64,000 nucleotides of DNA from an uncultured Winogradskyella sp. (GTDB lineage Bacteria; Bacteroidota; Bacteroidia; Flavobacteriales; Flavobacteriaceae), in assembly GCA_913055905.1 (NCBI GenBank), contig CAJXLB010000010.1, forward strand, positions 20,164-84,163. Direction: 5' to 3'. How positions within the stretch are numbered: the first letter of the stretch is position 1; the number at the start of each line of letters is the position of its first letter. The notes beneath the pieces were generated by a model. That model made no database searches and was not told the origin of the DNA. It saw only the letters and a list, made by a program, of their open reading frames with translations. Of the stretch, positions 26,629 through 52,657 are shown in pieces. Both the position numbers and the translations under genes were made by a program.

Positions 26629-27843
26629 ATGAAGGTATTATTTTTAACGCGTGAATTCCCACCATATGTCTATGGTGGTGCTGGCGTACATGTAGAATAT
26701 TTGGCTAAAGAACTTTCGGAATTAATGAAGGTTGATGTCCGCGCCTTTGGCGATCAAGATGTCGTTACCAATAATTTATCAGTTAAGGGTTTTTCTTGGG
26801 ACGATACCAACTTTGATGCTGCGGACGAGAAGCTTAAGATGCTCTTCAAGACCTTAAAAGTAGGCTTGGACATGAATATAGCGCCCACCGATGCCAATGT
26901 GGTGCATTGCCATACGTGGTATTCCCATTTTGCCGGAATTTTGGCGAAACTTTGTTATGGTCTTCCATTGGTAGTGACAACGCACTCCCTGGAACCCTTG
27001 CGTCCATGGAAACGAGAGCAGTTGGGAAGAGGTTACGATGCGTCATCATGGGTGGAAAAAACGGCTATTGAAATGGCAGATGCCATTATTGCCGTTTCTG
27101 AAGAGACAAAAGCAGATGTTCTAAATTACTTTGATGTTGATGAAAAAAAAATAGAGGTCATTTACAATGGTATAGACCTTAAGGAGTATGCTGCGACATC
27201 AGAGACTTCGGTTTTAGAAAGTTATGGTATAGACCAAACTAAGCCCTTTGTCTTATTTGTAGGTCGGATAACACGACAAAAAGGGATTATTCATTTGGTT
27301 AACGCCATAAAATTTATAGATAAGGATACCCAAATTGTACTCTGTGCAGGTGCCCCAGATACTGAGGACATTGCCAAGGAAATGGAAGACGCTGTGGCAA
27401 AGGCATCGGCAGACAGGGATAATATCTTTTGGATTGATAAAATGCTTGATAAAAAGGATGTTATTCAGCTTTATTCCCATGCTACCGTATTTTGCTGTCC
27501 TTCCATTTACGAGCCCTTTGGAATTATAAACATAGAAGCCATGGCTTGTGAAACAGCTGTCGTGGCCAGTGCTGTAGGCGGCATTAAGGAAGTTGTTGTT
27601 CCTGGGGAAACCGGACTATTGGTTCCGCTAGAGCAGCAAAAAGAGGCGCCCTTTGAGCCTGTTGATCCAGATCAATTTTCTAAAGACCTTGCTGAAGGTA
27701 TAAATACGGTTGTTGCCGATAAGGACCTTCAAAAAAATATGGCCAAAGCTGGGCGAAAGCGCGTGGAAGACCATTTTGATTGGAAAGCCATCGCTAAACA
27801 AACAAAATCACTTTATAAATCTTTAATTGACTCTAATGTATAA
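26629..27843 (+). CDS. glgA: Glycogen synthase / maltose-1-phosphate synthase-like glycosyltransferase (GlgA/GlgM type)
   Basis: A 404-residue GT-B glycosyltransferase of the short corynebacterial-type glycogen synthase family. Features are LTREFPPYVYGGAGVHVEYLA at the N-terminus, VVHCHTWYSHFAGILA, the start of the second Rossmann fold FVGRITRQKGIIHLV, and the donor-site EX7E region EPFGIINIEAMACETAVVAS. Mycobacterial GlgM, which makes maltose 1-phosphate from ADP-glucose and glucose 1-phosphate, belongs to the same group, and here the gene lies in front of glgC and glgE. I therefore favour a GlgM-like activity, but sequence alone cannot exclude chain elongation as in classical GlgA. It overlaps glgC by 8 bp. 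Confidence 0.85.
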   Translation: MKVLFLTREFPPYVYGGAGVHVEYLAKELSELMKVDVRAFGDQDVVTNNLSVKGFSWDDTNFDAADEKLKMLFKTLKVGLDMNIAPTDANVVHCHTWYSHFAGILAKLCYGLPLVVTTHSLEPLRPWKREQLGRGYDASSWVEKTAIEMADAIIAVSEETKADVLNYFDVDEKKIEVIYNGIDLKEYAATSETSVLESYGIDQTKPFVLFVGRITRQKGIIHLVNAIKFIDKDTQIVLCAGAPDTEDIAKEMEDAVAKASADRDNIFWIDKMLDKKDVIQLYSHATVFCCPSIYEPFGIINIEAMACETAVVASAVGGIKEVVVPGETGLLVPLEQQKEAPFEPVDPDQFSKDLAEGINTVVADKDLQKNMAKAGRKRVEDHFDWKAIAKQTKSLYKSLIDSNV

Positions 27844-29101
27844 TCAAAAAGTACTTAGCATCATTTTAGGAGGCGGACAAGGATCTCGCCTTTATCCACT
27901 TACAGAAACACGATCTAAACCAGCGGTGCCGATCGCTGGAAAATACAGGTTGGTGGATATTCCTATTTCCAATTGTATCAATTCTGAAATTAAGCGCATG
28001 TATGTGTTAACGCAATTTAATTCGGCATCGCTTAATCAACATATAAAAAACACCTATCACTTTAGTTTTTTTAGCTCGGCTTTTGTTGACGTTCTGGCTG
28101 CAGAACAAACCATACATAGTGGTGATTGGTTTCAAGGTACTGCAGATGCTGTAAGACAAAGCATGCATCACTTTATGCAACATGAGTTTGAGTATGCTCT
28201 GATTCTTTCTGGTGACCAGCTCTACCAAATGGATTATAACGAAATGATAAATGCCCATGAAGCATCAGGTGCAGATATCAGTGTGGGTACATATCCTGTC
28301 AATGCCAAGGATGCCACGTCATTTGGTATTTTAAAAACTGATGCAGATAATAATATTACCTCGTTCATAGAAAAGCCTTCTTCAGACTTATTGAAGGATT
28401 GGAAGTCGGAAGTTAGTGATGAAATGCTAGCACAGGGAAGAGAGTATCTTGGGTCAACCGGAATCTACATTTTTAATAGAGACTTATTGGTAGAATTAAT
28501 GAATGATACATCTACCGTTGATTTCGGTAAAGAAATCATACCACAATCCATAGGAAAACACAAGGTCGTAAGCTTTCCTTTTGAAGGATATTGGACAGAT
28601 ATTGGTAACATAGATAGTTTTTTTGAAGCTAATCTTGGCTTAACGGACGATATACCTAAGTTCAATCTCTATGATATGAATCAAAGGGTATTTACCCATG
28701 CTCGTATTTTACCTACGTCTAAAATATCAGGAACTACCCTAAATAAAGCCGTTATTGCCGAAGGCTGTATTATTCAAGCTGCGATGATCGAGAAATCGGT
28801 TATTGGTATTCGCTCTCGTATAGGGAAGGAATCAACGATAATAAATACCTATATGATGGGTTCTGACCTTTATGAATCTTTAGAAGAGATAGAAACCAAG
28901 CACATTAACATCTTAATGGGCATTGGTGAGCGATGTTTTATTAAAAATGCCATAATCGATAAGAACTGTAGAATTGGTGATGACGTTCGCATTAATGGCG
29001 GTAAGCATTTAAAGGATGCCGAAACAGATACTTACCTGATAAAGGATGGTATTGTGGTGATTAAAAAAGGTGCTGTAATCCCTAAAGGAACGGTTATTTA
29101 A
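27836..29101 (+). CDS. glgC: Glucose-1-phosphate adenylyltransferase
   Basis: A 421-residue nucleotidyltransferase making ADP-glucose, the donor for the synthase upstream. It has the N-terminal SIILGGGQGSRLYPLTETRSKPAVPI motif, the catalytic SGDQLYQMDY aspartates, the substrate motif FIEKPSS, and a C-terminal left-handed beta helix (EGCIIQAAMIEKSVIGIRS...IGDDVRINGG). It resembles the plant/cyanobacterial type in sequence. ATG 27836 overlaps the previous stop (ATGTATAA), which points to coupling; an in-frame TTG at 27827 is less likely. Confidence 0.94.
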   Translation: MYNQKVLSIILGGGQGSRLYPLTETRSKPAVPIAGKYRLVDIPISNCINSEIKRMYVLTQFNSASLNQHIKNTYHFSFFSSAFVDVLAAEQTIHSGDWFQGTADAVRQSMHHFMQHEFEYALILSGDQLYQMDYNEMINAHEASGADISVGTYPVNAKDATSFGILKTDADNNITSFIEKPSSDLLKDWKSEVSDEMLAQGREYLGSTGIYIFNRDLLVELMNDTSTVDFGKEIIPQSIGKHKVVSFPFEGYWTDIGNIDSFFEANLGLTDDIPKFNLYDMNQRVFTHARILPTSKISGTTLNKAVIAEGCIIQAAMIEKSVIGIRSRIGKESTIINTYMMGSDLYESLEEIETKHINILMGIGERCFIKNAIIDKNCRIGDDVRINGGKHLKDAETDTYLIKDGIVVIKKGAVIPKGTVI

Positions 29102-29232
29102 AACTACTTTTCAACACAAACAGTAATTCAAACGTTGTAGTTTGTCATTATTTTAGAATAATGAAATTCATACCCATTTTTATTTGCGTTTTTTATTAAA
29201 TTCGGCATTGAAATAGCTAATTTTTTATAGAA

Positions 29233-31170
29233 ATGCAAAATCAAAAGCGTGTAGTCATCGATTATGTGGCTCCCCAAATAAACGGTGGTGAGTTCTTTAT
29301 AAAACGTGTTGTAGATGAATTTGTAAATGTTGATGCCCATGTACTTGTCGATGGTCATGATGTCATTGGCGCTTCGGTTTTGTACAAACACGAAAAAGAG
29401 CGTAAATGGAGTGAATCTAGAATGCATCTTGTTGTGAATGATGAATGGAAATCGTCCTTTCAGGTTCAGAAACAAGGGTTTTATAGTTATAAGGTTCAAG
29501 GTTGGGTAGACTACGCTTTAAATTGGCAGCATGGTATAGAGCGAAAAATTGATGATGGGCAACATGTAAAGTCAGAATTGCTGGAAGGAATAACTTTGCT
29601 CAAACCACTTCTAAAAAAAGCATCAAGGGAGGAGCAAGATTACCTCAATTACTGTATAGCCTGTTTTGATGACCCTGAACAGTACGATTCGGCCATAAAG
29701 GAAGCCAAAAGCAGCGAGCTCCATGATATTTTTATGAAATATCCCGAAAAGCATCTTGCAAACGAATCTAAAGAGCTACAGGTTTATGTAGACCGTAAAA
29801 AAGCGAGATTTAGTACGTGGTACGAGTTTTTTCCAAGGTCTGCATCAGAGCAAGAAGGGCAGCACGGCACCTTTAAGGATTGCGAACGTCTGTTGCCGCG
29901 CATCGCTCAAATGGGCTTTGATACTTTGTATTTTCCGCCAATCCATCCGATTGGTTATGTTAACCGTAAAGGAAAAAACAACACCACCGAAGCACAGCCA
30001 GGAGATGTGGGCTCGGCTTGGGGCATCGGGTCTCCAGAAGGTGGACATAAAGCCATCCATCCTAAATTAGGAAGTTTGGAGGACTTTAAAGAGCTTATTA
30101 ATAAGGCTAAAGCACAAGGAATAGAAATAGCTATGGACTATGCCTTACAGGCCGCTCCAGACCATCCATGGGTAAAAGATCATCCCGAATGGTTTAAATG
30201 GCGACCAGACGGAACCGTGCAGTATGCAGAGAATCCACCCAAAAAGTACCAGGATATTTTGCCGATTTATTGGGAGTCTAAAGACTACAAGAATCTGTGG
30301 AATGAATGTCTGGATATTTTGATGTACTGGATTGATTGTGGTATAACCATATTTAGGGTAGATAATCCGCACACCAAGCCATATTACTTCTGGGAGTGGA
30401 TTATCGCAGAGGTTAAGAAAAAGCATCCGGATATCATTTTTTTGGCAGAAGCTTTTACCAAACCTAAGGTGATGCAGCAATTGGCAAAGCGTGGCTATAC
30501 GCAATCGTATACCTATTTTACATGGCGAAATTCAAAACATGAATTAACCGAGTACCTCACTGAGCTTACCCAAACAGACCAGCGTGAGTATATGCGCCCT
30601 AATTTTTGGCCCAATACACCAGATATTAATCCTTACCACTTACAAGGGTCTAACGAATCTAAATACATGCAGCGTTACGTCCTTGCAGCTACCTTGAGTT
30701 CTAACATAGGTATTTATGGGCCAGTTTATGAACAAATGATAGATGAGGCCGTACCAGGAAAGGAAGAGTATTTTATGTCTGAGAAATTTGAGGTAAAACA
30801 TTACGATTGGTTTAAGCAAAATAAATTGACCACCGTAATTTCTAGGATAAATCAAATTCGTCATGAGCATGAAGCCTTGCAGCAAACCAATAATATTAAA
30901 TTCTGTCATGTAGACAACGATAACCTCATGGCTTATTATAAATGGAATGACAGTAAATCCGATGAACTTTTAATCGTGGTCAGCTTAGAGCATCATTACT
31001 CTCAGCAAGGAACGGTACAGTTGCCATTATCTGATTTGGGTGTTTATCCCGGACACCATATCAATGTGAGTGATTTAATTACAGGAAGTAATTACAATTG
31101 GTATAACGAATGGAATTTTGTAGAGTTGCATCCCACTCTACCGTTTCATATCTTTAAAATAAATAAATAG
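29233..31170 (+). CDS. glgE: Alpha-1,4-glucan:maltose-1-phosphate maltosyltransferase GlgE
   Basis: A 645-residue GH13 enzyme that adds maltosyl units from maltose 1-phosphate to alpha-1,4-glucan. After an N-terminal domain (to ~180) comes the GH13 barrel starting STWYEFFPRSAS, with the GlgE-type PPIHPIGYVNRKGKNN, the nucleophile Asp377 in FRVDNPHTKP and the acid/base Glu406 in FLAEAFTKP. The 29-residue spacing between them equals that of Streptomyces GlgE (D394/E423). The NPHTKP string separates GlgE from amylases and trehalose synthases. It begins 131 bp after glgC and is followed by maltokinase after 3 bp. The length is slightly below the actinobacterial enzymes. Confidence 0.93.
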   Translation: MQNQKRVVIDYVAPQINGGEFFIKRVVDEFVNVDAHVLVDGHDVIGASVLYKHEKERKWSESRMHLVVNDEWKSSFQVQKQGFYSYKVQGWVDYALNWQHGIERKIDDGQHVKSELLEGITLLKPLLKKASREEQDYLNYCIACFDDPEQYDSAIKEAKSSELHDIFMKYPEKHLANESKELQVYVDRKKARFSTWYEFFPRSASEQEGQHGTFKDCERLLPRIAQMGFDTLYFPPIHPIGYVNRKGKNNTTEAQPGDVGSAWGIGSPEGGHKAIHPKLGSLEDFKELINKAKAQGIEIAMDYALQAAPDHPWVKDHPEWFKWRPDGTVQYAENPPKKYQDILPIYWESKDYKNLWNECLDILMYWIDCGITIFRVDNPHTKPYYFWEWIIAEVKKKHPDIIFLAEAFTKPKVMQQLAKRGYTQSYTYFTWRNSKHELTEYLTELTQTDQREYMRPNFWPNTPDINPYHLQGSNESKYMQRYVLAATLSSNIGIYGPVYEQMIDEAVPGKEEYFMSEKFEVKHYDWFKQNKLTTVISRINQIRHEHEALQQTNNIKFCHVDNDNLMAYYKWNDSKSDELLIVVSLEHHYSQQGTVQLPLSDLGVYPGHHINVSDLITGSNYNWYNEWNFVELHPTLPFHIFKINK

Positions 31171-31173
31171 GTT

Positions 31174-32805
31174 ATGACCAAAAAGAAATCTTCGGCCACA
31201 AATCTTCAGCTACCGTACAATTTTGATGTACGCTGGGAAGAGCTTATGGAAAATAAAGATTTCGTAAAGATATTTCTATCAGATGTTCTCGAGAATTACA
31301 TTGTTAAACAGCGTTGGTACGGTGGAAAATCGAGTAAACTTAAATATATAGAGCTCGCGCAATATTTCAGAATTCAAAAAAATGAAGAGGTCTATTATGG
31401 CCTCATTTTGGAGGTTAACTTCGAGGAAGCCTTTTACCAACATTACTTTATTCCCATAGCCTTTGTGTCTGATGAAAGCTTTGCCAAAGACGACCGTATT
31501 TTACCCATAAGCATTCAGAACCAAGAAGGTTATATCATAGATGCCATAAATCTCGAAGCCTTTAGGAAAGTAGTCTTTGAGCGCATTCTTACCGCGGCAC
31601 CTATAGACAAAACTCCAGTGCAGTACCATAAAAGTACCATATTTAAGGATTGCGAATATGAATCCTCTCGGTTTATGGGAATGGAGCAAAGTAACACCTC
31701 CATTGTTTACAATGAGAAATACGTTTTAAAATTTTTTAGACGTATTTATGCCGATAGAAATCCCGACTATGAAATGAGCCGATTTTTATCGGAAACCAAG
31801 GATTTTAAAAACACTCCAGCTTATTTGGGAAGTGTGCAAATTAAAGACCACGAAAACGTAAACATCACCATAGCTCTTATGCAAGAAATGGTGCCCAATC
31901 AAGGTGATGCATGGGATTACATGCTCAAGGAGTTACATAAGGTCTTCAGTAATTTAGAGTATAAAGGAATAAATATAGACGCCCTCCCGCAAACGCAACA
32001 ATTTGAAAGATTAGATATTAGGGACATTCCTCCCCAAATCATCGATTGGGCTGGACTCAATATCTTTACTAAAATTCAAAAATTGGCCCAACGAACGGCC
32101 GAAATGCACATCGCCTTAGGTTCGGAATTTGAAGATACGGCCTTTACGCCAACGCGATTTAATGGAGATTATACGGTTTGGTTAAAGAATAGGTTGCTCT
32201 ACCAATTTCAAAACAGGTTGAATTCCGTAGAGAATAACATGCACAAACTAGAGGGATTGGCACTAGAATTGGCTCAAGAATTTTTGGAAAAGAAAAACGA
32301 GATAAGAAAGCGTTTTGTCAATTTTGACTGGACCAAACTCAAAGGAGAACGGTTACGCGTGCATGGCGACTATCACTTGGGGCAAATTTTGGTAAAGGAT
32401 GATGATTTTTATATTCTGGACTTTGAAGGAGAGCCAGAGAGCACCATTAGGGATAGAAAAGTGAAGCAGCCACCTTTGAAAGATGTGGCCGGATTGTTTC
32501 GTTCGTTTCATTACGCGATTTACGCTACCATATTCAATAATTTAGATAAATACCAACATGACCAAGAGCAGCTGTTTAAGGCAGGCGAAATCTTATACCA
32601 GTATCTTATAGGTTTATTTTTAGGGACTTACGTTGTGGTCATTCAAGATGCAAATATTAATATTGGCTATCAGCAAGAGCGTGTTTTCCTTTTAAAATAT
32701 TGTCTGTTAGAGAAAGCAGTTTACGAATTGGGTTACGAACTTAACTCTAGGCCACGATGGGCCGTCATTCCATTAAAGGGAATTTCAAATATTATCAACC
32801 ACTAG
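31174..32805 (+). CDS. Maltokinase (Pep2/Mak-like), stand-alone
   Basis: A 543-residue protein with the aminoglycoside phosphotransferase-like fold of maltokinases. It has the N-terminal cap (WYGGKSSKLKYIELAQYF), a Brenner-type catalytic loop HGDYHLGQIL (His397, Asp399), the metal site ILDFEGEPE (Asp416), and the family C-terminus RPRWAVIPLKGI. Maltokinase makes maltose 1-phosphate from maltose and ATP, feeding GlgE. In many bacteria it is fused to trehalose synthase; here it is free and no treS is in the window, so its maltose would have to come from glucan breakdown or uptake (inference). It lies between glgE (3 bp) and glgB (5 bp). Confidence 0.88.
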   Translation: MTKKKSSATNLQLPYNFDVRWEELMENKDFVKIFLSDVLENYIVKQRWYGGKSSKLKYIELAQYFRIQKNEEVYYGLILEVNFEEAFYQHYFIPIAFVSDESFAKDDRILPISIQNQEGYIIDAINLEAFRKVVFERILTAAPIDKTPVQYHKSTIFKDCEYESSRFMGMEQSNTSIVYNEKYVLKFFRRIYADRNPDYEMSRFLSETKDFKNTPAYLGSVQIKDHENVNITIALMQEMVPNQGDAWDYMLKELHKVFSNLEYKGINIDALPQTQQFERLDIRDIPPQIIDWAGLNIFTKIQKLAQRTAEMHIALGSEFEDTAFTPTRFNGDYTVWLKNRLLYQFQNRLNSVENNMHKLEGLALELAQEFLEKKNEIRKRFVNFDWTKLKGERLRVHGDYHLGQILVKDDDFYILDFEGEPESTIRDRKVKQPPLKDVAGLFRSFHYAIYATIFNNLDKYQHDQEQLFKAGEILYQYLIGLFLGTYVVVIQDANINIGYQQERVFLLKYCLLEKAVYELGYELNSRPRWAVIPLKGISNIINH

Positions 32806-32810
32806 AATTT

Positions 32811-34721
32811 ATGTCAGAAGTTATTGCACACAGTTTATTTACGGATTTTGATATTGATTTATTTAAATCTGGAAAACATTACCGTCTTTACGAAAAATTC
32901 GGTTCCCACATTATTACCGTCAATGGTGTAGAAGGAACATATTTTGCGGTTTGGGCTCCGAGCGCCAAAGCCGTATCAGTAATAGGAGATTTTAATTACT
33001 GGTTGGAAGGCGACCACAAACTCAATGTGCGCTGGGATGAGAGTGGTATTTGGGAGGGCTTTATCCCAGGAGTAGGTAAAGGAAATATCTATAAATATAA
33101 AATTCAAAGTCATCATAACGATATAAAGACAGAAAAGGCCGATCCTTATGCGCGACGTAATGAGCACCCACCGAAAACAGCTTCTGTGGTTTGGGAAGAC
33201 AATTACAAGTGGAAAGACTCCAAATGGATGAAATCCCGTAAAGAGAACAATGCGCTGGATGCACCGTTTTCCGTTTACGAAGTTCATTTAGGCTCTTGGC
33301 GAAAAAAGATGGAGGAGAATAGGTCCTTATCCTATGCCGAACTTGCCGAGGATTTGGTAGCCTACGTTAAGGACATGAATTTTACGCATGTAGAACTCAT
33401 GCCCATTATGGAATATCCTTACGATCCATCTTGGGGTTATCAGCTTACGGGCTATTTTGCACCAACGGCACGCTTTGGTTATCCTGATGAATTCAAACTA
33501 TTGGTAGATAAATTGCATCAAAACGGCATCGGTATTATTTTGGATTGGGTACCGTCACATTTCCCTGAAGACGCTCATGGTCTTGGGTTTTTCGATAATT
33601 CTCATCTGTACGAACATCCAGACAGAAGAAAGGGCTATCACCCAGACTGGAAGAGTTTGATTTTTAATTACGGACGCAATGAGGTAAAATCTTTCCTTAT
33701 AAGTAATGCGCTTTTTTGGTTAGACCAATATCATGCCGATGGGTTGCGTGTAGACGCTGTGGCATCCATGCTGTTCCTCGATTATAGTAGGGAAGAGGGC
33801 GAATGGGAGCCAAATATGTTTGGCGGACGCGAAAATCTTGAAGCCATAGCTTTTATGAGAGAAATGAATGAAGCGGTTTATAGTGCTTTTCCGGACATAC
33901 AAACCATTGCTGAGGAATCTACTTCGTTTCCCATGGTGTCCAAGCCAACCTATATCGGAGGTTTAGGTTTTGGTATGAAATGGATGATGGGTTGGATGCA
34001 TGATACGCTACAATATTTTGCAAAAGAACCTGTGTACCGTAAGCACCATCAAAACGATTTAACCTTTTCAATGACTTATGCTTTTACTGAGAACTTTATG
34101 CTACCGCTAAGTCATGACGAAGTCGTTTACGGAAAACGTTCCATCTTGGGCCGAATGCCTGGTGACGAATGGCAGCGCTTTGCCAATTTGAGATTGCTTT
34201 ATGGTTATATGTTTACACACCCAGGGACTAAGCTATTGTTTCAAGGGGCAGAATTTGGACAAAGTGAGGAATGGAATTTTCAACAAAGCTTAGATTGGCA
34301 TTTGTTACAATATGAACCGCATAAGGGCGTACAAGCCTTAATTAAGGACCTTAATACATTCTACAAAAAGGAACCTGCACTGTTTGAGAAACAATTTTCT
34401 GGAGAAGGATTTGAATGGATAGATTATAATGATGCCGAAAATTCTGTATTGGTCTATATGCGAAAAGGAAATGACCCTAAAGATGATCTCATAATAGCCT
34501 GTAATATGACACCAGTTCCAAGAGAAAACTACCGCATGGGCATACCTAGAAAGGGCAAGCTTAAAGAGGTATTTAATAGCGACTTAAAAAAATATTTTGG
34601 AAGTGGTAACTACAAGAACAAAATGAAAACGTCTAAAGCCGAGCCATGGCAATTCAGGGATAATTCTGTAGAAATCAATATTCCACCTTTAGGAATGTTA
34701 GTATTTAAATATGCCAAGTAA
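32811..34721 (+). CDS. glgB: 1,4-alpha-glucan branching enzyme
   Basis: A 636-residue GH13 branching enzyme introducing alpha-1,6 branches. It has a CBM48 domain (TYFAVWAPSAKAVSVIGDFNYW), the barrel motifs WGYQLTGYFAPTARFG, nucleophile Asp315 in GLRVDAVASML, acid/base Glu368 in IAEEST, and LSHDEVVYGK. The D-E spacing of 53 equals that of the E. coli enzyme (405/458). The extra N1 domain of the E. coli form is missing, the shorter type. I place the start at ATG 32811 (MSEVIAHSLF), just after the maltokinase stop; an earlier ATG at 32757 would force a 49-bp overlap and add a non-family stretch. Confidence 0.95.
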   Translation: MSEVIAHSLFTDFDIDLFKSGKHYRLYEKFGSHIITVNGVEGTYFAVWAPSAKAVSVIGDFNYWLEGDHKLNVRWDESGIWEGFIPGVGKGNIYKYKIQSHHNDIKTEKADPYARRNEHPPKTASVVWEDNYKWKDSKWMKSRKENNALDAPFSVYEVHLGSWRKKMEENRSLSYAELAEDLVAYVKDMNFTHVELMPIMEYPYDPSWGYQLTGYFAPTARFGYPDEFKLLVDKLHQNGIGIILDWVPSHFPEDAHGLGFFDNSHLYEHPDRRKGYHPDWKSLIFNYGRNEVKSFLISNALFWLDQYHADGLRVDAVASMLFLDYSREEGEWEPNMFGGRENLEAIAFMREMNEAVYSAFPDIQTIAEESTSFPMVSKPTYIGGLGFGMKWMMGWMHDTLQYFAKEPVYRKHHQNDLTFSMTYAFTENFMLPLSHDEVVYGKRSILGRMPGDEWQRFANLRLLYGYMFTHPGTKLLFQGAEFGQSEEWNFQQSLDWHLLQYEPHKGVQALIKDLNTFYKKEPALFEKQFSGEGFEWIDYNDAENSVLVYMRKGNDPKDDLIIACNMTPVPRENYRMGIPRKGKLKEVFNSDLKKYFGSGNYKNKMKTSKAEPWQFRDNSVEINIPPLGMLVFKYAK

Positions 34722-34838
34722 ATGGCATGGAAAAAAGGCTTTATGGGAACCATACAATAACTAAAACGTTATAGTTAGTAACTCATCGAAAATACAATCC
34801 TGTAGTCTTTTAGAAGTTCAATTTTTTCCGTTTTTTTA

Positions 34839-34858
34839 CACGATTTTATAAAATCGTG
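34839..34858. promoter_or_regulatory. 20-bp perfect palindrome at the start of the GH31 gene
   Basis: CACGATTTTATAAAATCGTG is a perfect inverted repeat that ends two bases before the ATG at 34861. It could be an operator for a dimeric regulator or an RNA hairpin that masks the start region. No T-run follows, so it is not a terminator. The rest of the 139-bp gap holds no clear promoter. Confidence 0.55.
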
Positions 34859-34860
34859 CT

Positions 34861-37266
34861 ATGATAGTAAACACAGAACTAGAGAACAAGGGAAATCAGT
34901 TTCCTTCCAAAATTATAGATTTTAAAAAGGATGTAGATAAGCTCTATTTTTCTACAAGCAATGATGTTATTCTAGAGCTCACGGTAGTTAGGGATAGTGT
35001 CCTAAGGTTCAGATATACTACCGTTGGTAATTTTGACAATGACTTTTCTTATGCCATTACAAAATATGCCAGTATTGGTTTCAATAAATTGGAAATTGAG
35101 GAAAAAACAGATTGTTTTGAAATTGAAACCTCAAAATTGCGTTGTGAAATCTCCAAGGAAAGTCTTCGGGTTTCTATTTATGATGTAAAGGATAATTTTC
35201 TCATCAACCAAGATGAAATAGGTTTTCATTGGGAAGAGAGCTATGAATATGGTGGTAACATCGTAAAGATGAGCAAAATATCCAATGATGGTGAGAGCTA
35301 TTATGGCCTTGGTGATAAACCAAATCATTCTAATTTAAAAGGTAAGCGTTATAAGAACTGGGTAACGGATTCTTATGCTTATGGCAGAGATACCGATCCT
35401 ATTTACAAGGCTATTCCGTTTTATACCGGCTTACATCATAATAAGGCCTATGGTATTTTCTTTGACAATACCTTTATGTCGTCTTTTGACTTTGCGCATG
35501 AAAGACGAAATGTAACAAGTTTCTGGGCTCAAGGTGGAGAAATGAATTATTACTTTATCTATGGTCCAAAAATGAACGATGTTGTTGAAAGTTACACGGA
35601 TCTAACAGGAAAACCCCATCAACTACCTCCACTTTGGGCTTTAGGCTTTCATCAATGTAAATGGAGCTATTATCCTGAAAGTAAGGTAAAGGAAATCACG
35701 TCAACGTTTAGAAAATTACAGATTCCCTGTGATGCCATTTACTTGGATATCGATTATATGGATGGTTTTAGATGTTTTACTTGGAACAAGGAGTATTTTC
35801 CAGATCCTAAGCGAATGGTAAAGGAATTGGCGGAAGATGGTTTTAAAACAGTGGCCATTATAGATCCGGGAATCAAGATTGATAAGGACTATGAGGTTTT
35901 TAAAGAAGGTCTGGAGCAAGATTTTTATTGCAAACGAGCCGATGGTGCCTATATGAAAGGAAAAGTCTGGCCAGGGGAATGTTATTTCCCTGATTTTACC
36001 AATCCTGAAGTTAGGGATTGGTGGTCTGGTTTGTTTAAAGAACTCATTGAAGACATTGGCATAAAAGGTGTTTGGAACGATATGAATGAACCTGCTGTTA
36101 TGGAGGTGCCGAATAAAACATTTCCAGATGATGTAAGACACGACTATGATGGTAATCCTTGCAGCCATAGAAAGGCTCATAATATTTATGGCATGCAAAT
36201 GGCAAGAGCGACCTACCAAGGACTAAAAAAATACAGCTATCCTAAGCGTCCTTTCGTAATTACGAGAGCAGCCTACTCAGGGACACAACGGTATACGTCT
36301 ACATGGACTGGTGATAACGTTGCTACTTGGGAGCATTTGTGGATTGCCAACATCCAAGCTCAGCGCATGGCCATGTCTGGTTTTGGGTTTGTAGGTAGTG
36401 ATATTGGTGGTTTTGCAGAGCAGCCTTCAGGAGAATTATTTGCGCGGTGGGTGCAGCTTGGAGCCTTCCACCCGTTCTTTAGAGTTCATTCTTCAGGTGA
36501 TCATGGTGATCAAGAACCTTGGGCTTTTGACGAGGACGTTACCGATATTGTTAGAAAATTTATTGAGCTGCGCTACCAGTTATTACCTTATTTGTACACT
36601 GCTTTTTGGAATTATGCGGATCATGGTACGCCACTTTTAAAGTCTTTGGTGTTGTACGACCAAGAAGATGTGCAAACCCATTACAGAACGGATGAATTTA
36701 TTTTTGGAGAGCAAATACTGGTTTGCCCTATTCAGGAGCCCAATGCTAAAGGTCGTAGAATGTATGTGCCTCGAGGTAATTGGTACAATTTTTGGACAGA
36801 TGAAGTGATTAAAGGAGGAAAAGAAATGTGGGTAGATGCTGATATAGATAGCATGCCTTTATTTGTTAAGGAGGGAGCTATAATTCCTAAGTTTCCTGTT
36901 CAGCAATATGTAGGTGAAAAAGAAATAACCGAGATAACATTAGACGTCTATTACAAAGAAGGTAAGGAAAAAAGTGAATTATACAGCGATGCTAATGATG
37001 GCTACGATTATACCAAAGGACGTTATAGCCTAAGAACATTCAGTCTCACTGGACGTAAGGACGAGCTGATTATTAATCAGCATAAAGAAGGGAAGTTCAT
37101 GACGACTTACGAAACGTTTAAAATCAACATTCATGGTTTACCTTTTGACATTGGAGAGATTCAACTCGATAATGAGGAAGTGTCCTTAGATGCTCTATCG
37201 GCCAATGGTATTCAAACTTTTGTAGTTGATAAGAACTTTTCAGAATTACACTTTATTTCTAAATAA
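34861..37266 (+). CDS. Glycoside hydrolase family 31 (alpha-glucosidase-like)
   Basis: An 801-residue GH31 enzyme without signal peptide, thus cytoplasmic. It has an N-terminal beta sandwich (to ~250, with YYGLGDKPNHSNLKGKRY), the catalytic barrel with PCDAIYLDIDYMDGFRCFTW, the nucleophile Asp407 in VWNDMNEPAVM, the acid FVGSDIGGF (about Asp514), HPFFRVHSS, and the usual C-terminal beta domains with LFVKEGAIIP. The most likely activity is release of glucose from alpha-glucan ends; specificity within GH31 cannot be read from sequence alone. It is the last gene of the glycogen locus and is preceded by a palindrome that overlaps its leader. Confidence 0.92.
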   Translation: MIVNTELENKGNQFPSKIIDFKKDVDKLYFSTSNDVILELTVVRDSVLRFRYTTVGNFDNDFSYAITKYASIGFNKLEIEEKTDCFEIETSKLRCEISKESLRVSIYDVKDNFLINQDEIGFHWEESYEYGGNIVKMSKISNDGESYYGLGDKPNHSNLKGKRYKNWVTDSYAYGRDTDPIYKAIPFYTGLHHNKAYGIFFDNTFMSSFDFAHERRNVTSFWAQGGEMNYYFIYGPKMNDVVESYTDLTGKPHQLPPLWALGFHQCKWSYYPESKVKEITSTFRKLQIPCDAIYLDIDYMDGFRCFTWNKEYFPDPKRMVKELAEDGFKTVAIIDPGIKIDKDYEVFKEGLEQDFYCKRADGAYMKGKVWPGECYFPDFTNPEVRDWWSGLFKELIEDIGIKGVWNDMNEPAVMEVPNKTFPDDVRHDYDGNPCSHRKAHNIYGMQMARATYQGLKKYSYPKRPFVITRAAYSGTQRYTSTWTGDNVATWEHLWIANIQAQRMAMSGFGFVGSDIGGFAEQPSGELFARWVQLGAFHPFFRVHSSGDHGDQEPWAFDEDVTDIVRKFIELRYQLLPYLYTAFWNYADHGTPLLKSLVLYDQEDVQTHYRTDEFIFGEQILVCPIQEPNAKGRRMYVPRGNWYNFWTDEVIKGGKEMWVDADIDSMPLFVKEGAIIPKFPVQQYVGEKEITEITLDVYYKEGKEKSELYSDANDGYDYTKGRYSLRTFSLTGRKDELIINQHKEGKFMTTYETFKINIHGLPFDIGEIQLDNEEVSLDALSANGIQTFVVDKNFSELHFISK

Positions 37267-37344
37267 ATTCAGTTGATTTTGTTTAGAGCTACTTGATTGA
37301 TATGGAACGAATTTTGTATTTTTCAAAATCAAAAAAAAAAGATT

Positions 37345-38172
37345 ATGGATATAAAAAAGAACCTGCTAGCCTTTGGATTGTTGACTATGGTCCTAGCTTG
37401 CGCAACAAATCCTTTCACGGGCAAGAAAACCATGGCCTTTGTGTCTAACGATCAATTATTTCCAGCGGCATTTGCTCAATACAATCAGGTACTTACTGAA
37501 AATAAAGTCATTACTGGCACAGCCGATGCTGAAATGATTACTCGGGTAGGAGAGCGCATCGCAGTTGCAGCGGAACGTTGGTTAAGTGCAAACGGTTATC
37601 AAGGTTATCTAGATGATTATAAATGGGAATACAAACTTATAGAATCTGAGCAGGTTAATGCTTGGTGTATGCCTGGGGGAAAAATAGCGTTCTACACAGG
37701 AATCTTACCAATAGCTGAAAATGAAACAGGAATAGCAGCTATTATGGGACACGAGGTAGCTCACGCTCTTGCAAACCACGGTCAGCAGCGTATGAGTGCC
37801 GCTTACATTCAGCAAGGATTGGCGGTGGCTGGTAATATTGCCTTGGCAAATGACCAACAGGCCTTAAATATTTTTAACCAATCTTATGGAGTTGTATCCA
37901 ACGTTGGTGGTATGCTGCCCTTTAGTAGAAGCCACGAAACCGAAGCAGACAAGATCGGAGTCTATTTAATGGCAATTGCAGGCTATAATCCGGATGAGGC
38001 TGCGAATTTATGGGAGCGTATGAAGGCGAAAAGTGGAGGTCAAGCACCTCCAGAGTTTATGAGTACACACCCAAGTAATGACTCTAGAATCCAAAACTTG
38101 AAAGCTCTTGCCCCTAAGGCCAAAGAGGAAGCCAAAAAGTTTGGGATCAATTCATTTAGACCGATAAATTAA
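37345..38172 (+). CDS. M48 family zinc metalloprotease, lipoprotein (BepA/LoiP-like)
   Basis: A 275-residue predicted lipoprotein. It starts MDIKKNLLAFGLLTMVLAC with the lipobox cysteine, followed by ATNPFTGKKTMAFVSNDQLF, a string typical of this envelope peptidase group. The M48 active site is HEVAHALANHGQQR and the third zinc ligand lies in SRSHETEADKIGVYLM. Such proteases act in outer-membrane quality control. ATG 37345 is chosen because it gives a clean lipoprotein signal; an in-frame start at 37297 would put a polar stretch first. A terminator follows. Confidence 0.9.
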   Translation: MDIKKNLLAFGLLTMVLACATNPFTGKKTMAFVSNDQLFPAAFAQYNQVLTENKVITGTADAEMITRVGERIAVAAERWLSANGYQGYLDDYKWEYKLIESEQVNAWCMPGGKIAFYTGILPIAENETGIAAIMGHEVAHALANHGQQRMSAAYIQQGLAVAGNIALANDQQALNIFNQSYGVVSNVGGMLPFSRSHETEADKIGVYLMAIAGYNPDEAANLWERMKAKSGGQAPPEFMSTHPSNDSRIQNLKALAPKAKEEAKKFGINSFRPIN

Positions 38173-38233: not shown

Positions 38234-39535
38234 ATGAACGATATTAAAAAAGGAAGTCCTAAACTTCTTAATGCTTGGGCGTTTTATGATTGGGCAAATT
38301 CGGTATACACCTTAACCATTGCGTCTTCAATTTTCCCAATATTTTATTCGGCACTGTTTATAACGGAAATAAAGAAAATTACTGCTTTTGGATACGAATT
38401 TAAAAGTACCGCCTTAATTACCTTCGTTACAGCTTTTACATTTATGGTTGTGGCAGTTCTATCTCCAATATTATCAGGAATAGCGGATTATGTAGGTAAC
38501 AAAAAGAATTTTATGAAGTTTTTTTGCTACCTGGGTTCAATAGGCTGTGTTGGTCTTTATTGGTTTAGCTTAGAGCGTATACATTTAAGTCTCTTGTTTT
38601 ATTTCATGGGATTAATTGGCTATTGGGGAAGTTTGGTTTTCTATAACTCTTATTTACCTGATATTGCTTTTGAAGAACAACAGGATAAAGTAAGTGCAAA
38701 GGGATTTGCCATGGGATATATTGGCAGTGTCTTGCTCCTTATTTTAAATTTAGCCATGGTTATGAGCCAAGATGAAGGCGCCGAAAAAATGCAAATGATG
38801 CGTTACTCCTTCGTAACGGTAGGTATTTGGTGGGCCTTATTTAGCCAGTACACCTTTAAGGTTTTGCCAAAAGGTGTTTCTTCTGGGCATAAGGTGACCA
38901 AGGAGATTTTGTTTCATGGGTTTAAGGAATTAAAAGGGGTTTGGAAACAACTAAAGGAAGACTTAAGGCTGAAGCGCTATTTATATGCCTTTTTTGTTTT
39001 TAGTATGGCCGTACAGACTATAATGCTGGTAGCTGTATATTTTGGTGAAGAGGAAATTAATTGGGGCAGTACCGAAGCTAAAACCACTGGGCTCATAGTG
39101 AGTATATTGGTTATTCAGCTCGTGGCTATCGTGGGCGCTATTTTAACGTCAAGGGCATCTTCTAAATTTGGAAATATCAAAACATTGATTATCACAAATT
39201 TTATTTGGATGTCTTTATGTGTTTATGCCTATTTCATGAAGAGTCCAGTGCAATTTTACATTGCAGCTGGTTTAGTTGGTTTGGTTATGGGCGGCATTCA
39301 GTCCTTAGCACGTTCTACCTATTCTAAATTTTTACCGCAAACCGAAGATACCACATCCTTCTTTAGCTTTTATGATGTCGCCGAAAAAATAGGAATCGTT
39401 ATAGGCATGCTCATTTACGGATTTATAGACCAGATAACGGGAAGCATGCGAAACTCCATCTTATTCCTGGTTTTGATTTTTTTGTTTGGGATTATTTTGT
39501 TGTTTAGGGTTCCAAAACACAGAATAAAGGACTAA
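38234..39535 (+). CDS. MFS transporter, UMF1/Atg22-like
   Basis: A 433-residue membrane protein with about twelve hydrophobic segments. The N-terminal LNAWAFYDWANSVYTLTIAS motif is the signature of the UMF1 (Atg22-like) branch of the major facilitator superfamily, and GLVGLVMGGIQSLARSTYSKFLP in the C-terminal half is also typical of it. The substrate is unknown; eukaryotic Atg22 exports amino acids from the vacuole, which should not be carried over. It sits between two terminators, so it is probably monocistronic. Confidence 0.88.
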   Translation: MNDIKKGSPKLLNAWAFYDWANSVYTLTIASSIFPIFYSALFITEIKKITAFGYEFKSTALITFVTAFTFMVVAVLSPILSGIADYVGNKKNFMKFFCYLGSIGCVGLYWFSLERIHLSLLFYFMGLIGYWGSLVFYNSYLPDIAFEEQQDKVSAKGFAMGYIGSVLLLILNLAMVMSQDEGAEKMQMMRYSFVTVGIWWALFSQYTFKVLPKGVSSGHKVTKEILFHGFKELKGVWKQLKEDLRLKRYLYAFFVFSMAVQTIMLVAVYFGEEEINWGSTEAKTTGLIVSILVIQLVAIVGAILTSRASSKFGNIKTLIITNFIWMSLCVYAYFMKSPVQFYIAAGLVGLVMGGIQSLARSTYSKFLPQTEDTTSFFSFYDVAEKIGIVIGMLIYGFIDQITGSMRNSILFLVLIFLFGIILLFRVPKHRIKD

Positions 39536-50861: not shown

Positions 50862-52505
50862 TTAATTGAAAAGCTTCTTGTAATAATCTTCAGCCATCCG
50901 ATGGCTAGAGAACGCCGGAATAACATCATCCATGCCTTTATAAACAATACGCTGCCATTTATCTGGTTCATTATAAAACGTTGGAATGACCTCGTCTTCC
51001 AGTATTTTATACAGATTTTGAGCATCCAATTTGTCTTGTTCCTCTACAGGAAGGTTGTGGTCTAACTCCGGAAGGACAAAACTATTTTTACCATGTTTTT
51101 CAAACTCTGGTATCCAACCATCATTAACAGATACATTAACTGAACCGTTCATGGCAGCCGTCATACCACTGGTACCAGAAGCCTCGCGAGTTATCCTCGG
51201 TGTATTTAACCAAATATCAGAACCGAGTTTTAGTTGGCGCGAGAGCGCTATCTCATAACCTGTTAACACGGCCAAATTCGGGTGTTCCTTGGATACGTGT
51301 ACTAATTTGTTAAAAACGTCGATGCCAAATTGGTCGTGTGGATAAGGTTTTCCTGCCCAAATAATTTGAATAGGATAGTCCTTGTTGTAAATGAGTTTTA
51401 AAAAGCGCTCAAAATCATAAAGCAATAAATCGGCTCTCTTGTATCCAGCAAAACGTCTCGCCCAAACAATGGTTAGAGTTTCTGGGTTGAAAAGCTTTTC
51501 GGTTTGGTTAACCACAGTTTTGAAGAGTTCTTCTTTCAGTTCTATCTTTCGTTTTATAAAAAGTTTATCGTTCAATTTATCTTTAGCATTTTTTAGAGCC
51601 TTGTCCTGCCAAAAATTTTGATTCTGTGCATTGGTAATAGGAATTATAGAGCAAATCCCTGAATAGGATTTCCACATATCCTTAGCCACTTTAGCGTGAA
51701 GCTTGGACACGGCATTTGCTTTTTTGGCCATTCTCAGAGCCGAAACCGTATAATTGATATTGCCACTATTAACTGTCTCCTCTGCTAGCTCTTCATCGGT
51801 TAAGGTCCTTCCAAAAAAGCCACATTTATTCAAGAATTTTCCATCTCTTTCTTCATTGCCGGCTTTTTCGGGTGTGTGGGTGGTAAAGACAAGTTGATTC
51901 TTGTTTATTCCTTTATCTTTTAAATAATAAAAAGCTGGCAGGGCATGACCCTCATTAAGATGATAGATGTCTGCGCCACCTAAAGCTTCTACAACTTTTG
52001 CGCCACCAACACCCAAAACAATACTTTGGGAAATCCTTGTAGTTTCATTGGCATCATATAAATGATCCGTAATGGTTCTAGATAGGTAATCATTACCTTC
52101 GACATCTGTGCTCAAAAGGTATAAGGGGACAGTCCCAAAAAGTTCTGGTTTAAGCACATAGGCCTTAACTTTTACATTAGGGTTGCCATGAAGGGTTACT
52201 TTAACTTCGATGCCAGTGTCCTCTAGAAAATTATAGGTTTTTTCTACAAAATCTGTTCTAAGGGTTTTATCGCTGTTTCTCGATTGGTCGTAATAACCAT
52301 ATTTCCAAAGCATACCAACACCAATCATATTCTGCTTAAGTTCATAAGCTGATCGCATGTGGGATCCCGCCAAAAATCCAAGACCGCCTGAATAGATCTT
52401 TAGAGCTTGGTCTATACCAAATTCCATACTAAAATAGGCTACTTTTTTATTGAAGGGTTTTACGGGTTTATAAGGGTGGTACCAGGTATTATATTTGCTA
52501 GACAT
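50862..52505 (-). CDS. glgP: Alpha-glucan phosphorylase family protein (GT35) lacking the PLP lysine
   Basis: A 547-residue member of the short alpha-glucan phosphorylase group: VAYFSMEFGIDQALKIYSGGLGFLAG, DIYHLNEGHALPAFYYL, FTTHTPEKAGNEERDG, TIVWARRFAGYKRADLLLYD, and LNTPRITREASGTSGMT. In phosphorylases that last motif reads GTSGMK or GTGNMK and the lysine carries pyridoxal phosphate; here the codon is ACG, threonine (residue 449). Everything around it is kept, so this is not a decayed gene. Either PLP is bound otherwise or the protein does a different reaction. ATG 52505 (MSSKYNTWYHPYKP) is preferred; ATGs at 52526 and 52547 precede it and overlap a TACATTTG -7-like box. Confidence 0.85.
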   Translation of the reverse strand: MSSKYNTWYHPYKPVKPFNKKVAYFSMEFGIDQALKIYSGGLGFLAGSHMRSAYELKQNMIGVGMLWKYGYYDQSRNSDKTLRTDFVEKTYNFLEDTGIEVKVTLHGNPNVKVKAYVLKPELFGTVPLYLLSTDVEGNDYLSRTITDHLYDANETTRISQSIVLGVGGAKVVEALGGADIYHLNEGHALPAFYYLKDKGINKNQLVFTTHTPEKAGNEERDGKFLNKCGFFGRTLTDEELAEETVNSGNINYTVSALRMAKKANAVSKLHAKVAKDMWKSYSGICSIIPITNAQNQNFWQDKALKNAKDKLNDKLFIKRKIELKEELFKTVVNQTEKLFNPETLTIVWARRFAGYKRADLLLYDFERFLKLIYNKDYPIQIIWAGKPYPHDQFGIDVFNKLVHVSKEHPNLAVLTGYEIALSRQLKLGSDIWLNTPRITREASGTSGMTAAMNGSVNVSVNDGWIPEFEKHGKNSFVLPELDHNLPVEEQDKLDAQNLYKILEDEVIPTFYNEPDKWQRIVYKGMDDVIPAFSSHRMAEDYYKKLFN

Positions 52506-52657
52506 TGATGTATTGATTTGAGTCATAAAAAGCTCAAATGTAAGCATTAGTGCCTCATAAATTAGGTGATAATTATCATAAAACTCAAAGCGCTGAAAGA
52601 AATAACGATATCTTAATATTCTGTTACTTTAAGTGATAATTTCCTAATTTTTTACGT

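Follow-up and report, generated by a model that had tools for sequence, protein, structure and literature searches.

A six-gene operon in the genome of an uncultured Winogradskyella sp. very probably encodes a glycogen storage pathway, GlgC–GlgM–GlgE–GlgB, that is fed by ADP-glucose via maltose 1-phosphate. The operon occupies positions 26629–37266 of a 64,000-nucleotide stretch of GenBank assembly GCA_913055905.1 (hereafter the window) and comprises genes for GlgM, GlgC, GlgE, a free maltokinase, GlgB and a GH31 protein, all on the + strand. An earlier reading of the window, made without database searches (the sequence-only reading), had described these as six co-directional genes, and hidden Markov model matches bear out their positions and strand. 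In the pathway, whose activities and flux we infer from the genes, their conserved active-site residues, genome-wide searches and co-occurrences, GlgC would convert glucose 1-phosphate to ADP-glucose, GlgM would join ADP-glucose to a second glucose 1-phosphate to give maltose 1-phosphate, GlgE would transfer the maltosyl unit onto a growing alpha-1,4 chain with release of phosphate, and GlgB would branch the chain. The free maltokinase would provide an optional second entry by phosphorylating cytosolic maltose to maltose 1-phosphate; such maltose could come from import as well as from glucan breakdown, the latter being the source named in the sequence-only reading. More broadly, it is likely that the GlgC–GlgM feed constitutes a self-standing, trehalose-independent GlgE pathway that is widespread outside the actinobacteria, that the GT4 clade labelled 'glycogen synthase' is a maltose-1-phosphate synthase throughout, and that marine Flavobacteriia such as Winogradskyella, Algibacter and Polaribacter rely mainly on this pathway for storage.

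Enzymes of the operon and the host genome

The first gene of the operon (glgM; 26629–27843, +) is predicted to encode a GT4 alpha-maltose-1-phosphate synthase using ADP-glucose and glucose 1-phosphate. The protein belongs to GT4, not GT5, and is nearest to characterised GlgM, matching the GT4 model TIGR02149 ('glgA_Coryne') at 555.5 bits (cut-off 302.4), with 6tvp (GlgM) as its best sequence match in PDB (E 3.9e-105) and 51% identity to GlgM of Mycobacterium smegmatis (192/377 aligned residues). The eight ADP-glucose-binding residues named for the solved M. smegmatis enzyme (PMC7137382) are all retained (H109, V146, N171, R207, K212, E289, G292 and I293 in M. smegmatis numbering), and are likewise intact in 98/98 GlgM proteins compared and in 6tvp. 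Similarly, an AlphaFold model of the protein (predicted local distance difference test score 87.8) is closest to 6tvp (E 1.2e-39; template modelling scores 0.85/0.89), with lower template modelling scores against MshA (0.75/0.77), the GT5 synthase of Pyrococcus abyssi (0.77/0.73) and GlgA of Escherichia coli (0.70/0.60). Three further residues, R125, K128 and Q131 of the motif LEPxRPWKxEQLG, are identical in all 98 GlgM proteins and 6tvp. MshA, a sucrose-phosphate synthase and P. abyssi GlgA each have another residue at K128, and carry K, K and P, respectively, in place of R125; as a guess from this conservation, the three might hold the phosphate of glucose 1-phosphate. Sequence and fold likeness leave the acceptor unproven, and the occurrence pattern described below says more.

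The remaining enzymes were recognised with varying margins. GlgC (ADP-glucose pyrophosphorylase; 27836–29101, +) exceeded the cut-offs of both PRK02862 (620 versus 537 bits) and TIGR02091 (432 versus 424.9 bits); its start is most likely the ATG at 27836, giving an overlap of 8 bases with glgM, where the open reading frame list had a TTG at 27827. GlgE (29233–31170, +), a predicted maltosyltransferase that follows glgC after 131 bases, carries the N/S domain (GlgE_dom_N_S, PF11896; 169.7 bits, cut-off 25) and the C domain (GLGE_C, PF21702; 83 bits, cut-off 27), and matches the PDB entries 5cgm (E 2.3e-165) and 4u2y (E 2.7e-164). Its D377 and E406, picked out in the sequence-only reading as nucleophile and acid, correspond to residues 394 and 423 of the Streptomyces coelicolor chain (counted from the alignment), its catalytic residues, and both letters are kept in 74/74 GlgE proteins compared. 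The free maltokinase gene (mak; 31174–32805, +), which begins 3 bases after glgE and has no TreS fusion, scored just below the cut-off of TIGR02457 (364 versus 375 bits) and just above that of Mak_N_cap (PF18085; 23.5 versus 22 bits); its PDB matches are maltokinases (E about 1e-31 to 1e-30), and the HGD and DFEG motifs noted earlier lie at residues 397 and 416. GlgB (branching enzyme, 636 residues; 32811–34721, +) matches PRK12313 at 959 bits (cut-off 577) and most likely starts at the ATG at 32811, hence 5 bases after mak and without overlapping it. The last gene (34861–37266, +) encodes an alpha-glucosidase-like GH31 protein (PF01055; 436 bits, cut-off 23.5) that is probably cytosolic, because no signal peptide is apparent by eye at its N-terminus.

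The host genome (2.95 Mb in 13 contigs, 98.67% complete) was searched in full for other routes to glycogen. No TreS was found above the cut-off (best score 84 versus 678 bits), and trehalose therefore could not enter by the known TreS step. TreY was not found above its cut-off, no GT3 synthase was present, and the only GT5 matches were an N-terminal fragment and a weak match of GlgM itself. A treS or a classical glgA elsewhere in the genome, either of which would have refuted the sequence-only reading by its own terms, was thus looked for and not found. Among the polymerase families searched in the host (GlgE, GT5 and GT3), GlgE alone is complete; TreS of the TreS–Mak route and the full-length GT5 synthase of the classical GlgC–GlgA pathway were both not found. 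The genome does encode a 734-residue OtsA–OtsB protein (contig C3) and a starch-type locus (C1:772000–809000) with GH13 enzymes, a GH65 protein, a beta-phosphoglucomutase and a GPH-like sugar symporter, the last scoring under the cut-off of its family.

Distribution of GlgM, GlgE and their feeds

Across a sample of 395 Bacteroidota genomes from 170 genera, GlgE matches were found in 129 genomes and 30 genera, two of these genera weakly (G042 and G183, with weak PF11896 matches, were left out of the GlgE counts, leaving 127 clear GlgE genomes and 28 clear genera). GlgM above the cut-off occurred in 30 genomes and 14 genera, and all 30 genomes were among the 129 with GlgE matches. The view that this is an uncommon way of building glycogen in the phylum needs qualifying in the light of these genus counts (GlgE 30/170, GlgM 14/170); in the host's own family, GlgE was found in 10/41 genomes and GlgM in 8/41. 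By genus, GlgE accompanied GlgM in 14/14 cases versus 28/170 overall, with plain hypergeometric probabilities of co-occurrence, uncorrected for kinship, of 4e-13 by genus and 1e-16 by genome.

The feeds of GlgE (TreS, Mak and GlgC) were analysed in 49 of the 127 clear GlgE genomes, the other 78 comprising 75 genomes of one family and three of another; TreY and OtsA were tested in 18 and GT3 in 38 of 51 genomes, these being the 49 together with G042 and G183. GlgC was above the cut-off in all 30 GlgM genomes versus 1/19 tested genomes with GlgE but without GlgM. TreS was present in nine of the 30 GlgM genomes and missing from 21, of which 14 also had no maltokinase match, leaving GlgM as the sole recognisable source of maltose 1-phosphate there. 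Full-length GT5 was found in only two of the 30 (G154 and G202), and GT3 above the cut-off in none. Among the 19 GlgE genomes without GlgM, 11 encoded TreS and eight a free maltokinase only (G130, G234, G099, G190, G320, G371, G079 and G137). These eight all retain another synthase, with GT3 in three and full-length GT5 in five (in G320 and in G371, the GT3 match contains one stop codon), and their GlgE may be a side route for maltose salvage. The simplest reading is that GlgE has three feeds in the phylum: TreS–Mak, GlgC–GlgM, and maltokinase alone as an extra. These occurrence patterns suggest that it is the GT4 enzyme that makes maltose 1-phosphate, and support the earlier expectation that ADP-glucose would be the main entry via GlgM.

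The arrangement of the genes is also shared by relatives. The locus has its nearest named relatives in Winogradskyella, the GlgM of W. pelagia being 85% identical. Among 55 flavobacterial-type loci (L052–L104, L111 and L114), glgC follows glgM in 53, with gaps of -111 to 657 bases, and glgE also lies within the covered stretch in 40. Of these 40, maltokinase was found in 33 and GlgB in 36; in the seven without mak, GlgB and GH31 were in view at six and one locus was incomplete. The same operon occurs in Polaribacter (L074, L079, L081 and L082). At a locus of the same genus (L012; G226:C1:2520500–2540400), an OtsA gene sits on the opposite strand in the gap between glgC and glgE, while the OtsA–OtsB gene of the host lies on a different contig from its operon; no GH31 gene was found within 4 kilobases after glgB at L012.

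Outside the phylum, relatives of GlgM with 62–67% identity were found in Chloroflexota, Planctomycetota, Verrucomicrobiota, Lentisphaerota, Pseudomonadota (Accumulibacter and Dechloromonas) and Nitrospirota. In named genomes whose GlgM was at least 62% identical, GlgE was found in 50/50 tested out of 80 loci. Phylum labels, taken from record titles and the GlgM tree, place 23 of the 50 outside Bacteroidota, and in 11 of these 23 glgE comes directly after glgM. In the best GlgM tree (100 rows), which has long branches and named rows picked by similarity, the flavobacterial clade stands beside Chloroflexota, Pseudomonadota and Planctomycetota, apart from other Bacteroidota. A single Bacteroidota clade was not rejected by an approximately unbiased test (p 0.182), so that the best tree suggests transfer of GlgM from another phylum without establishing it.

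Alternative readings and known pathways

Several points weigh against the proposed pathway. According to the structural report, acceptor residues are not known even for the solved GlgM (PMC7137382), so a preference for glucose 1-phosphate cannot be read from the sequence. Membership of GT4 is by itself no proof, as GT4 homologues both with and without glgE have been described for bacteria at large (Koliwer-Brandl 2016; PMC4981310); that wider set may extend beyond the clade studied here. The co-occurrence counts are not phylogenetically independent, about four GlgM candidates were scored per genome so that a low-ranked GlgM without GlgE could be missed, and the 50 named genomes were picked by GlgM similarity and include many metagenome bins of no given completeness. 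In addition, in the two genomes with a full-length GT5 (at L017 and L019, from the same family as the host), this glgA adjoins glgC and glgE, while GlgM is encoded elsewhere.

One alternative is that the GT4 protein is itself a glycogen synthase that elongates glucan with ADP-glucose, with GlgE and the maltokinase confined to minor maltose salvage. Such a role would agree with the name of TIGR02149 (glycogen synthase) and with the homologues lacking glgE, and the GT4 enzyme could replace the full-length GT5 missing from 28/30 GlgM genomes and the GT3 missing above cut-off from 30/30. However, a stand-alone synthase should also occur without GlgE, yet the two were found together in every GlgM genome of the Bacteroidota and every named genome tested, and GlgE would have no known source of substrate in the 14 genomes lacking both TreS and maltokinase. 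The nearest solved enzyme, that of M. smegmatis, had no detectable glycogen synthase activity (PMC7137382), and a synthase role for the GT4 protein is considered unlikely.

It is similarly improbable that the maltokinase is the main entry, with maltose imported via the starch-utilisation locus, phosphorylated and built into glycogen, and GlgM kept as a backup. The symporter, beta-phosphoglucomutase and GH65 protein of the host's starch-type locus could serve such a route, mak is tightly spaced behind glgE, and eight tested genomes combine GlgE and maltokinase without GlgM or TreS; however, mak is the gene missing from some related operons (7/40), another synthase is retained in all eight of those genomes, and the GH65 protein would draw on the same maltose if it is a maltose phosphorylase. 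A persisting trehalose feed, in which OtsA–OtsB and an unrecognised trehalose-to-maltose enzyme would supply the maltokinase, is very improbable despite the OtsA–OtsB protein and five GH13 frames of no exact assigned function in C1, as the best TreS score fell far short of the cut-off, the three of these five C1 proteins that were scanned gave better matches to models of maltodextrin glucosidase or alpha-amylase than to TreS, and OtsA had no match in 11/18 genomes tested.

An ADP-glucose feed through GlgM would also differ from other routes in cost. GlgC spends one ATP per ADP-glucose, the GlgM acceptor is a second glucose 1-phosphate and GlgE releases phosphate, so that two glucose 1-phosphates are polymerised per one nucleotide. 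From this stoichiometry, the classical route and the OtsA–OtsB–TreS–Mak route would each require two nucleotides versus one via GlgM, and the cheaper route would suit cells gaining glucose 1-phosphate via phosphorylases. For example, a laminarin phosphorylase has been noted in such bacteria (PMC11093988).

The chemistry of the proposed pathway is known from mycobacteria, where the GlgC–GlgM–GlgE branch consists of these enzymes, acting in the order inferred here; the host proteins keep the donor residues of GlgM and the catalytic pair of GlgE. In contrast to the host, in which no TreS or TreY was found, mycobacteria also run TreS–Pep2 (PMC11046441), and unlike the mycobacterial branch, the host genes form one operon that includes a free maltokinase and a GH31 gene. 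The TreS–Mak/GlgE pathway of Chlamydiales, Pseudomonas and Pontibacter resembles the host in that GlgE polymerises maltose 1-phosphate and GlgB branches the product, but is described, in the sources as available, as trehalose-fed, whereas the host has no TreS and an unfused maltokinase. Outside the actinobacteria, glgM and glgE have been annotated in Nitrospira marina, which unlike its relatives is without a glgA-type synthase (PMC8115632), although this report, in its accessible part, consists of one annotation sentence on the subject and does not treat operon, TreS or occurrence. Similarly, glgM, glgC and glgE were reported in 8/9 Defluviicoccus genomes (PMC9041414), but most of these also encode treS, glgA, treY and treZ, so their feed is not by GlgM only. 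Among marine flavobacteria, and in favour of the proposed pathway, the GlgE protein of Polaribacter sp. Hel_I_88 rises while alpha-glucan forms (PMC11093988). The available text of that study speaks of a starch synthase GlgA, not separating GlgM from GlgA, and takes as its proxy the GlgA transcripts from two genome bins; in other Polaribacter (Hel_I_88 itself lying outside the comparison), the corresponding operon gene is GlgM.

A 2024 review states that GlgE bacteria outside the actinomycetes use the TreS route only, and describes GlgM as mostly actinobacterial (PMC11046441); the genomes examined here argue otherwise. No paper on GlgM in Bacteroidota was found in a literature search that left most subscription papers out of reach, and PMC12766990, as far as accessible, mentions glgM as a viral gene only. 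The trehalose-free arrangement is a little-described variant of known chemistry, not found described for this phylum. In the 14 genomes without TreS and maltokinase, the other recognised sources of maltose 1-phosphate are naturally knocked out, making GlgM function testable in harmless marine bacteria. The proposed function would correct a gene name, and it bears on how flavobacteria convert algal sugar to alpha-glucan reserves, which pass into the marine carbon cycle.

Surrounding genes and minor observations

Downstream of the operon lie genes for an M48 peptidase (37297–38172, +; PF01435) and an Atg22-like major facilitator superfamily transporter (38234–39535, +; PF11700, 262 bits). The peptidase gene occupies the same place in L015, L017 and L023, and the transporter gene is near the operon in L015, L017 and L019 (the last in part); neither was found at the corresponding place in L013 and L016. 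An alpha-glucan phosphorylase-like gene (GT35; 50862–52547, -; TIGR02094, 433 bits versus a cut-off of 191.7, and PF00343) lies outside the operon, about 13.6 kilobases from the GH31 gene, and its product could turn glycogen back to glucose 1-phosphate, a substrate for GlgC and GlgM alike.

A scan for a Bacteroidetes-type promoter pattern gave three matches versus 3.3 expected, none of them in front of the operon on its own strand. The promoter scan (33 versus 40.5) and terminator scan (10 versus 10.1) were at chance level, and regulation signals were dropped.

The GT5 fragment of the host (PF08323) is a 271-residue frame at C1:618453–619133, given as 270 residues at L010:1381–2193 (-) of G000:C1, with the N-terminal domain only and a pantoate ligase gene beside it. 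Retention of a GlgA–GT5 fragment by Bacteroidetes has been mentioned in a review (PMC11046441), and GT5 frames of 261–344 residues recur in 43/51 genomes tested.

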